Part shown: piece after piece, positions 5,133 through 29,663 of the stretch | Position numbering within the stretch: the first letter of the stretch is position 1 | How the letters are laid out: each line of letters begins with the position of its first letter | Source of the DNA: Candidatus Levyibacteriota bacterium | Lineage (GTDB): Bacteria; Patescibacteriota; Microgenomatia; Levybacterales; UBA12049 | Reading direction: 5' to 3' | DNA length: 36,953 nt | Assembly (NCBI GenBank): GCA_016186625.1 | Contig: JACPLG010000005.1 | Coordinates: forward strand, 1-36,953 | Notes under the pieces: generated by a model | What the model was told of the DNA's origin: nothing | The model's database searches: none | What the model saw: the letters and a program-made list of their open reading frames with translations, nothing else | Program-made: the position numbers and the translations under genes

Positions 5133-5695
5133 GAAAAATTGTTTTTGTGACAGGGAATAAGTGGAAGGCAAAAGAGACTGAAGAGATTCTCAACACAAAA
5201 CTTCAAATTTCTGAAATTGAACTTCCGGAAATTCAGGAAACAGATTTGGAAAAAGTAGCGCTCCATAAACTTACTCAAGCATTCAAAATTTTAAGAAAGC
5301 CAGTAATTATTGATGATGTATCTTTTGAAGTAGAAGCCTGGAATGGTTTCCCAGGGCCACTGATTAAATGGTTATTAAAGGCTGGCGATGGTCCAAGTCT
5401 CCTTCTTAAAATGCTTGAAAAAGAAAAGAATCGGAGGGCATATGCCAGGCTTGCAATTGGGTATCATAATAGTAAAAAAGCCTACCTATTTTTAAGTAAA
5501 GTAAAAGGTTCGATATCTCATGAGATCAGAGGGGATAATGGTTTTGGCTGGGATAGGGTTTTTATACCGGATGGTTATAAGGAGACTTTTGCTGAGATGG
5601 ATCCCAAACTAAAAAATTCCATATCCCACCGAGCAATTGCCCTTAAAAAATTTAGCAATTTCCTGAATAAAGAATATAGGAGATTAAGAAAATAG
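5129..5695 (+). CDS. Non-canonical purine NTP pyrophosphatase (RdgB/HAM1 family)
   Basis: FVTGNKWKAKE, DDVSFEVEAWNGFPG, GFGWDRVFIPDG, NSISHRAIA motifs. Confidence 0.88.
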   Translation: MRKIVFVTGNKWKAKETEEILNTKLQISEIELPEIQETDLEKVALHKLTQAFKILRKPVIIDDVSFEVEAWNGFPGPLIKWLLKAGDGPSLLLKMLEKEKNRRAYARLAIGYHNSKKAYLFLSKVKGSISHEIRGDNGFGWDRVFIPDGYKETFAEMDPKLKNSISHRAIALKKFSNFLNKEYRRLRK

Positions 5696-6057
5696 TGATA
5701 AAGAGTTATAAAGATTTGATTTTTTGGCAAAGAGCTCTCGAAGTAACAAAATTAGTAATTAAACTTTGCAGAGAATTGCCGAAAGATCGAGTTTCAGTGA
5801 TACTTATTTCTCAGATCATAAGATCAAGTGCATCTGTTGGCGCTAACATTGCTGAGGGTTACGGCAGATACAAGACAAAAGAATATCCAAGATTTTTGCA
5901 AATAGCACTTGGATCAGCAAATGAGACAGAATATTGGCTTATTCTAATTAAGGATACATATCCTATCTTTGAAAAAGAGATAGACATTATTATTGAAAAG
6001 AATCTAGAAACAATAAAAATGCTTTCTGCAAGTCTTAAGACATTTAAGAATAGCTAG
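5695..6057 (+). CDS. Four helix bundle protein (23S rRNA intervening-sequence protein family)
   Basis: SYKDLIFWQRALEV...QIIRSSASVGANIAEGYGR...YPRFLQIALGSANETEYWL is typical of the family; GTG start. Confidence 0.9.
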   Translation: MIKSYKDLIFWQRALEVTKLVIKLCRELPKDRVSVILISQIIRSSASVGANIAEGYGRYKTKEYPRFLQIALGSANETEYWLILIKDTYPIFEKEIDIIIEKNLETIKMLSASLKTFKNS

Positions 6058-27613: not shown

Positions 27614-28053
27614 GCTTCAAGCGCGGTGATTTTTTCAATTCTTCTTTTGTGTCTTTCTTCGTTTGAGAATGGGGTATTTAGAAAAAGTTCGATCAAACGT
27701 TTCGCAGTTTGCTCGTCCACCAGCTCAGAGCCTAAAGATAAAACATTCGCATCGTTATGCTCCCTAGCCAACTTGACATTTTGTTCGCTCACTCCCAGAA
27801 AAGCTCGAACTCCTTTTATTTTATTTGCCACAATACACTCGCCCGCTCCTGATTTTCCGAGAACTATTCCAAAAGATTCAGGATCTTGGGCCACTTTTTT
27901 AGCAGCCGGCGCTATAAAATCCGGATAGTCATCACTATGATTTAGTTCAAAAGCCCCGCAATCTTCAACTTCATATCCTTTTTGCCGAAGAAATGCTTTT
28001 ATCTTCTCTTTAAATTCAAATCCTGCGTGGTCTGTTGCTAGAAAAACTTTCAT
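27610..28053 (-). CDS. rpiB: Ribose 5-phosphate isomerase B (RpiB/LacA/LacB family)
   Basis: ATDHAGFEFKEKIK, DYPDFIAPAAKKV, LGKSGAGECIVANKIKGVRAFLG. Confidence 0.92.
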   Translation of the reverse strand: MKVFLATDHAGFEFKEKIKAFLRQKGYEVEDCGAFELNHSDDYPDFIAPAAKKVAQDPESFGIVLGKSGAGECIVANKIKGVRAFLGVSEQNVKLAREHNDANVLSLGSELVDEQTAKRLIELFLNTPFSNEERHKRRIEKITALEA

Positions 28054-29027
28054 ATCTTGACCGCTGTTAAGGCGAGATTTTGTTTAGATTTTTGTTCCAT
28101 CTCTTCCTTATTTAACAAACCTTCCTGTGCCCCAATTTTTTTGATTACCGAATTAGCGTTTATTGCAGCGTATCTCATAGCTTCTTGAACCGAATGGCCA
28201 TTTAAGGCTGCCCAGAGAAATCCGGTAGCATAAGAATCCCCTGCCCCGGTTCTCTCGATCGGTCTTTCACTTGTAACAACTCCAATGTGAAACATTTCCC
28301 CAGTCTTGTTAATAGCGTAAGAACCATTTATTCCGTCAGTGACAACGGCAATTTTTACCCCATGGGTTTTTAATTTATTTAAAATTGATTTCACATCAGG
28401 ATTATTATCCTTTATTATTTTCTGAGCTTCTTGTAAATTCACGAAAAGAATTTCAATCTTGGGAAGAATTTCAATAAGCTTATCTGCGGTCTCCATAATC
28501 TGCCTTGTTCCGGGATTCATGGCAAATCTTGCATTTTTATATTTTGAAAAAATACTCTCATATACTTTTTCCCAGCCTCCCCTAATGTTTGTTAAAAAAA
28601 CCAATTTTGCATCAATATAGCCTACCTCTAAATCCAATCCAAGAGGATTTTTTTCTTCAAGTATTGTTCTTTCTCCACCATAGCTTAGAATTACATTAAA
28701 ATATGGATTCTTTGTTTCCTCTTTTTTTAAAAATGTCATGTCAACGCCCTCTTTAGCTAATGTATTTGGGATTTTTTGTTGTAGCTCATCACTTCCTACC
28801 TCAGCGGCAAGCGAAGTTTTAAATCCCAATCGAGATAGGCCAACTGCGACATTGCAAGCATTTCCCCCAAGAGCAATTGTGTATTCATCAAGTGGAACCT
28901 TCTCTCCCAAAGTAAAAGAAATTTGATTGGAAAATTTATCGTAGGTGAATTTTTGAAGTTTCTGAAGCATTATGAAAACGTCAATGGTTGTTGATCCAAT
29001 ACACAGGACATCAATACCTTTATCCAT
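28050..29027 (-). CDS. PfkB-family carbohydrate kinase
   Basis: GGNACNVAVGLSRLG and RTGAGDSYATGFLWAAL motifs; ATGA overlap with rpiB. Confidence 0.92.
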   Translation of the reverse strand: MDKGIDVLCIGSTTIDVFIMLQKLQKFTYDKFSNQISFTLGEKVPLDEYTIALGGNACNVAVGLSRLGFKTSLAAEVGSDELQQKIPNTLAKEGVDMTFLKKEETKNPYFNVILSYGGERTILEEKNPLGLDLEVGYIDAKLVFLTNIRGGWEKVYESIFSKYKNARFAMNPGTRQIMETADKLIEILPKIEILFVNLQEAQKIIKDNNPDVKSILNKLKTHGVKIAVVTDGINGSYAINKTGEMFHIGVVTSERPIERTGAGDSYATGFLWAALNGHSVQEAMRYAAINANSVIKKIGAQEGLLNKEEMEQKSKQNLALTAVKI

Positions 29028-29062: not shown

Positions 29063-29094
29063 TGACTGGCTGTTGAGATCCTGCGATTAAAAAA

Positions 29095-29190
29095 GAGTAT
29101 CGCGAGTATCACGAGTACCAAGGGTATCAAAGGGAGTTTTAGCTCGTTCTCCCCGTGATACTTCTGATACTTGTGGTACTTTTGATACCT
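29095..29190. repeat. 96-nt palindromic array: four 9-nt repeats (GAGTATCRC-like) and four inverted 9-nt repeats (GTGATACTT-like), 12-nt loop
   Basis: gagtatcgc gagtatcac gagtaccaa gggtatcaa a gggag [ttttagctcgtt] ctccc c gtgatactt ctgatactt gtggtactt ttgatacct. Confidence 0.9.
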
Positions 29191-29202
29191 TTTGACTTGG
29201 GT

Positions 29203-29231
29203 TTGCAAATACGAGCTCAAAACCTTAGAAT
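29203..29231 (+). promoter_or_regulatory. Promoter TTGCAA-N17-TAGAAT, 6 nt before ATG at 29238
   Basis: TTGCAA 29203-29208, 17-nt spacer, TAGAAT 29226-29231, tgactt, ATG. Confidence 0.55.
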
Positions 29232-29237
29232 TGACTT

Positions 29238-29663
29238 ATGTTTTTCAGAAAAAAGGAAATCCTGGAAGAGAGTGTAAAGCTTAAGAAAAAAGAAGAACCA
29301 GGCGGTGAAGAATGGGATAAAAGAAAGATCATTATCTCCTCTTTTTTTGCAATCGTTGCGATTCTAGTCCTAGCGGAGATCAAAGGAATTTTTTTTCCTA
29401 GCAATCAGGAAATTTTAGGAGAGTCAATTAGCAGGCCAACTCCTATTAAAAAGCCTGATATAAAACCGCCAAGTTTTGATGTTGCAGCGGGAGTCGGTTC
29501 AAAAATAGAAGATATAAAGAAAAATATCGAGGGACTTGATGCCGAGGAAGTTGCTTCTTCATCTCCTCAAATTCAAAAAGTTCTGCGGGACATCCAGGGA
29601 ATAAAAGATTTGCCAACAAATCAGGCACGAGAAATGTGTTTTAAAATCTGCTCTGGAATTTAG
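29238..29663 (+). CDS. Hypothetical membrane-anchored protein
   Basis: Single TM KIIISSFFAIVAILVLAEI; directly upstream of prfB. Confidence 0.6.
   Translation: MFFRKKEILEESVKLKKKEEPGGEEWDKRKIIISSFFAIVAILVLAEIKGIFFPSNQEILGESISRPTPIKKPDIKPPSFDVAAGVGSKIEDIKKNIEGLDAEEVASSSPQIQKVLRDIQGIKDLPTNQAREMCFKICSGI

Follow-up and report, generated by a model that had tools for sequence, protein, structure and literature searches.

Rickettsia palindromic elements (RPEs) are dispersed palindromes that, as related in the parts of PMC10969869 that draw on Ogata et al. (2000, 2002), lie in frame in unrelated housekeeping genes, with just under half of those in R. conorii being situated within genes (PMC10969869). 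A second relevant system is the IVS of Coxiella burnetii 23S rRNA, in which inverted arms surround one S23 gene, the arm containing GACAGAT heptamers in tandem where that gene begins and the stem measuring 28 bp (PMC4990558), while the passage of PMC4990558 that cites Ralph and McClelland (1993) credits them with the proposal that IVSs are mobile with the ORF as a component. REP-REPIN-RAYT systems, in which a Y1 transposase gene accompanies the palindromes, and the tandem heptamers (short tandemly repeated repetitive sequences, STRRs) of cyanobacteria are further systems against which the locus described here was compared.

The DNA under study (hereafter the window, 36,953 nucleotides) is contig C15 of a 922 kb assembly in 16 contigs, 92.5% complete, of a Candidatus Levyibacteriota bacterium. 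A sequence-only reading had reported a hairpin at 29095–29190 in which four 9-nt repeats face four inverted 9-nt repeats, and the current analysis confirmed that this hairpin is real, with units, axis and coordinates all as first given: four units of 9 nt lead into GGGAG, followed by the loop of 12 nt, by CTCCC and by the four units in inverted form (Table 1). Folding of the + strand as RNA (29085–29200) yielded −49.1 kcal/mol and 40 pairs (z −6.8), as compared to −24.2 ± 3.7 kcal/mol for shuffled sequences, none of 200 of which was equally stable, and the − strand of the hairpin region likewise folded better than its shuffled controls (−40.0 kcal/mol, z −6.3). The stem, formerly given as about 42 positions, proved to be slightly longer, reaching the A/T tracts at approximately 29091 and 29193. 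The motif GTAYC-N4-GTAYC occurs six times in the window (expected 0.02), on every occasion in the hairpin, and Tandem Repeats Finder called a period of 9 for both arms. A known RNA family was rejected as the identity of the hairpin, as no Rfam match was obtained at the locus.

Table 1. Features of the hairpin and of its neighbourhood (positions of the window).
Feature	Position	Strand	Remarks
pfkB, PfkB-type sugar kinase gene, left neighbour	28050..29027	-	Kept in both same-genus relatives
Whole predicted stem	29091..29193	none	A5/T5 flanks included; based on RNA fold
Left arm	29095..29130	+	Four 9-nt units, GAGTATCGC, GAGTATCAC, GAGTACCAA and GGGTATCAA, starting at 29095, 29104, 29113 and 29122; unit GTAYCAVRR, register from 29097
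Axis	29131..29154	none	GGGAG (29132-29136), loop TTTTAGCTCGTT (29137-29148), CTCCC (29149-29153)
Right arm	29155..29190	-	Four inverted 9-nt units, starting at 29155, 29164, 29173 and 29182
Promoter-like TTTGCA-N18-TAGAAT (or TTGCAA-N17) of ORF 29238	29202..29231	+	Hexamers conserved in hairpin-free G008 and G009
ORF 29238, small membrane-anchored protein, 141 aa, right neighbour, followed by prfB	29238..29663	+	Kept in both same-genus relatives

Employing pattern searches together with similarity searches, on which the copy counts in the window genome rest, further copies were located by similarity and unit pattern on C2, C3 (two), C11, C13, C15 and C16. These are mostly single arms of 3–4 units followed by ACGGGGAG or AAAGGGAG at the point where the axis sits in the hairpin, and on account of this ending each such arm is regarded as half of the window palindrome; among the window-genome copies read, the window hairpin is the only one with two arms. 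Behind one single arm (L035, C13:27514) lies a longer run of GC-rich sequence, GAGCGAGGGGTGG...GGGATCCCGACAGCGCTC, and behind a Curtissbacteria copy (L211, 7416–7447) the similar GTGAGGGGTGGTGTCAGTGGAAGGGTTCCCGACAGCGC; this stretch is possibly a second element or a common coding sequence. Three-unit arrays are patchily distributed, being present in 13 of 73 family genomes (1 to 29 matches each) and in neither of the two other genomes of the same genus among those 73, whereas the reversed control pattern gave a single match in one of the 73. Across the class, the strict two-arm pattern was found in 6 of 384 genomes and its reversal in none. The same hairpin architecture is seen on contigs of Levybacteria, Curtissbacteria, Daviesbacteria, Blackburnbacteria and Gottesmanbacteria, while most of the array matches from other phyla look different, being perfect coding repeats or simple repeats. 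Copies of the hairpin sequence thus exist both elsewhere in the genome and in relatives, and the GTAYCAVRR family occurs in three forms, namely the lone arm, the hairpin of two arms and the pair of arms with a gene between them. Of the refuting conditions named in the sequence-only reading, neither folding at shuffled-control stability nor a lack of further copies was observed.

The third form was found at five loci, where inverted arms lie approximately 400 bp apart around one gene of about 120 codons, frameshifted in one of the five (L187). The framed gene matches the S23 / 23S_rRNA_IVP profile (PF05635, 91–122 bits; Pfam cut-off 33.8) and TIGR02436 (four helix bundle protein, 88–91; NCBIfam cut-off 24). 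Sequence comparison with solved structures led to a single relative, XCC0516 of Xanthomonas (2gsc), which the passage of PMC4990558 citing Lin et al. (2006) describes as a pentamer of four-helix bundles. The framed protein also bears a weak likeness to the Avd/bAvd proteins of diversity-generating retroelements (NF033474, E 4e-8 to 4e-6), but its matches to NF033474 and PF22296 are below the curated cut-offs. If the S23-bearing elements are the autonomous form, the hairpin would relate to them as a MITE does, since its terminal inverted repeats are common to both.

In the reading that we consider likely, the hairpin belongs to a dispersed element that is palindromic and presumably selfish, of which it is a non-autonomous copy and the autonomous relatives of which carry S23. 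The building block would be an arm of about four tandem GTAYCAVRR units ending in GGGAG, which occurs alone, as an inverted pair around a short loop (the window copy) or as an inverted pair around one S23 gene. The S23 protein may recognise the arm that is cognate to it, probably when this is single-stranded and structured (RNA or ssDNA), and may promote copying of paired arms, while another enzyme would presumably carry out strand transfer or reverse transcription; at the window locus the copy would have inserted into the spacer of pfkB and ORF 29238, on the upstream side of the promoter of the latter. An S23 gene of the cognate clade is present in the array-rich genomes G030 and G040. Counting against this explanation, no gene of that clade was found in the assembly of the window genome (92.5% complete) or in that of G032 (80% complete), the most array-rich genome of the family, and the gene is single-copy wherever it was found, so that mobility of its own is not visible. 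It likewise counts against it that S23 is not known to have a catalytic activity. The window contains an S23/four-helix-bundle gene of its own (5695–6057, GTG start; PF05635 match 5710–6027), which was rejected as partner of the hairpin as it has no significant arms (p 0.75) and belongs to a clade other than that of the GTAYC-armed S23s.

The singlet, doublet and gene-flanking organisation is also that of REP-REPIN-RAYT, and the window genome contains four Y1_Tnp genes, with such a gene being present in 41 of the 73 family genomes, which would fit a REP/REPIN element that owes its mobility to the Y1 (RAYT) transposases encoded in its own genome. However, the Y1_Tnp genes of the family are flanked by short GC-rich palindromes (e.g. 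AAGGCGACGCCTT) rather than by tandem arms, no GTAYC array lies near any of the four Y1 genes of the window genome, and G011, G031 and G037 possess arrays but no Y1 hit. As the RAYT genes carry REP-type palindromes of their own, the arms of which differ from those of the hairpin, Y1/RAYT was rejected as the mobiliser and this alternative is deemed unlikely. In Levybacteria, Y1_Tnp genes (L263, L265, L274–L279, L137, L138) are flanked by inverted GC-rich palindromes such as TAGCCTCGCAAGG and constitute a separate REP system.

Concerning the locus itself, both other genomes of the genus (G008 and G009) retain the gene order of the window, with pfkB divergent from the small membrane protein gene and prfB following, and in neither is the hairpin present in the pfkB/ORF 29238 spacer, although the hexamers TTTGCAA and TAGAAT are conserved in all three genomes. 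As both spacers lack the hairpin while genes and promoter are kept, these sequences argue that the hairpin is a recent insertion, dispensable for pfkB and for ORF 29238. No target-site duplication could be resolved from G008/G009 or from the carB alleles considered below, the empty alleles being too diverged. In G008 the corresponding spacer is occupied by a different short tandem array, AATAGCAAATAGCAAATATACATAGTAAATG (AAATAGC type; L343, ~930–1040).

The sequence-only reading had also raised the prospect of a regulatory RNA or a multi-site operator, and had found the wobble pairs of the stem compatible with RNA-level selection or with inversion of a tandem repeat. Among 18 two-arm hairpins, however, units that face each other in one hairpin resemble each other less (similarity 0.737) than do units paired across different elements (permutation mean 0.775, sd 0.013), and the palindrome thus stems from the unit consensus and not from pair-by-pair covariation. 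On the sense strand of the S23 elements, G-U-type and A-C-type mismatches number 48 and 40, respectively (p 0.46). RNA-level selection was rejected as unsupported on both counts, with a weak per-hairpin strand asymmetry (p 0.023) remaining. The lower than expected likeness of opposed units looks like an avoidance of perfect palindromes or their loss during assembly. A regulatory hairpin or operator controlling pfkB and ORF 29238 would be in keeping with the strong fold, with the location between divergent genes and with the A/T tracts on both sides, which resemble a bidirectional terminator; yet G008 and G009 do without the hairpin while keeping genes and promoter, most other copies are housed in coding sequence, and pairwise covariation is absent. 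Regulation of either gene as the role of the hairpin is thus unsupported and is judged very unlikely; the window copy most likely has no dedicated role, although, as a hairpin flanked by divergent genes, it may exert a side effect.

ORFs with a minimum length of 100 codons contain 24 of the 31 GTAYC hairpins and 41 of the 58 single arms collected, and a clear protein family could be assigned to 19 of the 20 host ORFs scanned: histidine kinase, dnaX, topA (two entries), carB, recG, a rluA-type synthase, leuS, transketolase, folC, obg, smpB, radA, dprA, rplC, cysS, fpg, rplD and comEC. When hairpin-bearing CarB is aligned with human CPS1, the match runs to residue 695 and resumes at 696, the hairpin accounting for the 31 extra residues, and the DnaX insert presents a similar picture. 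The CarB turn is short and empty in the window genome (G000), G009, G030 and G045 and filled by the hairpin in G032 and G040, while in G003 (L399) another tandem array occupies it. The proposal of a REP/MITE-like mobile palindrome, initially one of three readings of the bare sequence, is thus supported by dispersed copies, by empty sites in the same genus and by empty and filled carB alleles in the family.

In 23 of the 24 in-ORF hairpins the right arm is read as D-T-R and the left arm as V-S-R or S-I-T, never in the frame that contains stops, the single exception being a doubtful ORF; this avoidance fits translation of the copies as tolerated hydrophilic loops. One loop of recG is read in different frames in different copies (L083 and L105 as opposed to L170), which suggests separate insertions. 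In the dprA loops of G040 (L391) and G019 (L394), other tandem arrays or a REP-like palindrome are found where other genomes have GTAYC copies, and the carB and dprA loops would appear to be tolerant sites common to several repeat families. The competence genes dprA, comEA and comEC repeatedly host single arms (L032, L080, L100, L106, L074, L095, L102, L211, L235). A DNA-uptake signal read by the competence machinery could be supposed from this recurrence, but copies number about ten per genome and not hundreds, they are patchy and missing from close relatives, many other housekeeping genes carry arrays as well, and other repeat families occupy the same dprA linker, making such a signal extremely improbable.

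The association of S23 with inverted tandem arms extends beyond the GTAYC family. In a non-random sample of 64 S23 genes (strong hits plus chosen genomes), each upstream flank was compared to the reverse-complemented downstream flank of the same gene and to those of all other S23 genes. The own-flank score exceeded 95% of non-own flanks for 46 of the 64 genes, as against 8 of 64 in the direct-orientation control and 2 of 26 for prfB genes; the remaining 18 genes, that of the window included, have no significant arms, which counts against our explanation. The arms are tandem arrays, mostly of period 7 and in some cases of 8 or 9, and the period matches between flanks in 13 of the 15 genes with both flanks clearly periodic. 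Arm similarity is above threshold in 75% of pairs when the S23 proteins are more than 0.7 similar, in 10% at a protein similarity of 0.45–0.7 and in approximately 2% below 0.45 (Mantel p 0.006). The S23 tree unites the proteins with 9-nt GTAYC arms and two others, the GGTACA arms of which are related, in one group (support 100/99), and the ATTGTTMC-armed and the ACTAGAA-armed proteins each form a single group. By these comparisons of flanks and proteins, the arm repeat tracks the S23 subfamily. Among S23 genes of cyanobacterial plasmids, five of eight have significant inverted heptamer arms (e.g. TAGGGAG, GGGTGTA, AAAAGGG). One with inverted arms has cas10 on one side and cmr3 on the other within a type III-B CRISPR locus on a Picosynechococcus plasmid (L375), and a TAGGGAG-armed one lies between the two ribonucleotide reductase genes of a Nostoc edaphicum plasmid (L368). 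Comparison of 20 S23 loci with rRNA models gave no match.

Growth by slippage of immobile simple repeats, with the palindrome arising from local inversion, would agree with the variation in unit copy number and with the differing number of IVS heptamers among Coxiella strains (PMC4990558). It is highly improbable given that one unit consensus recurs at unrelated loci, in differing frames, on both strands and across phyla-level groups, that matching inverted arms frame S23 genes and that the reversed pattern is essentially absent. As read from the genomes compared here, the preferred explanation, a non-autonomous relative of S23-bearing elements, has behind it dispersal, patchiness, insertion relative to empty alleles, framing of S23, tracking of its subfamilies and in-frame residence. 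A broader proposal, which we judge to be somewhat less likely than not, is that S23 four-helix-bundle genes may form the autonomous core of a wide class of mobile elements that ranges from Microgenomates to Cyanobacteria and takes in the rRNA IVSs, each subfamily having its cognate tandem arms, with solo arms and arm pairs (the window hairpin, perhaps also the cyanobacterial STRRs) as non-autonomous offspring that spread without a classical transposase of their own.

When set beside the known systems, the GTAYC hairpins resemble RPEs in being palindromes in frame inside unrelated genes (24 of 31 in ORFs of at least 100 aa), but RPEs are about 150 bp long with conserved peptide families, whereas GTAYC copies measure 60–100 bp, have arms of four tandem 9-nt units, use several reading frames, share their arms with those framing an S23 gene and occur in a different phylum. 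Like the Coxiella IVS the family has inverted, stem-forming arms around an S23 ORF, but that IVS is part of an rRNA and undergoes cleavage by RNase III, while GTAYC copies lie in protein genes and spacers; neither the S23 loci (0/20) nor the window locus (no Rfam match) gave an rRNA match. The singlet arm, the inverted doublet and the single gene with the same arms on both sides recall REPIN/RAYT, although the framed gene is S23 (a four-helix bundle) and not a Y1 transposase, and the arms are tandem arrays. Cyanobacterial STRRs share the tandem layout, and S23 genes carried by plasmids of Nostoc, Calothrix and Geminocystis have heptamer arms around them, but the window family is of 9-nt units. 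Given the RPE-like working and the REPIN layout, yet with arms unlike those of RAYT genes and a location outside rRNA, the hairpin is placed among palindromic MITE-like elements as a variant, the comparison with RPEs and STRRs being by description only. In the open-licence literature, no publication was found that links arms made of tandem repeats with S23 genes located outside rRNA; given this scope, the absence is no proof.

Judged from its sequence, the window hairpin is one copy of an element that is scattered in Microgenomates bacteria, is probably selfish and often resides in frame in essential genes. The element points to a hitherto unrecognised spreading route for such DNA. These bacteria would represent a second group, not closely linked to Rickettsia, with in-frame palindromes in essential genes in otherwise small genomes. 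The proposed link between the S23 protein and its arms offers candidate answers to two old puzzles, namely the purpose of S23/IVS genes and the origin of the dispersed short tandem repeats of some bacteria.
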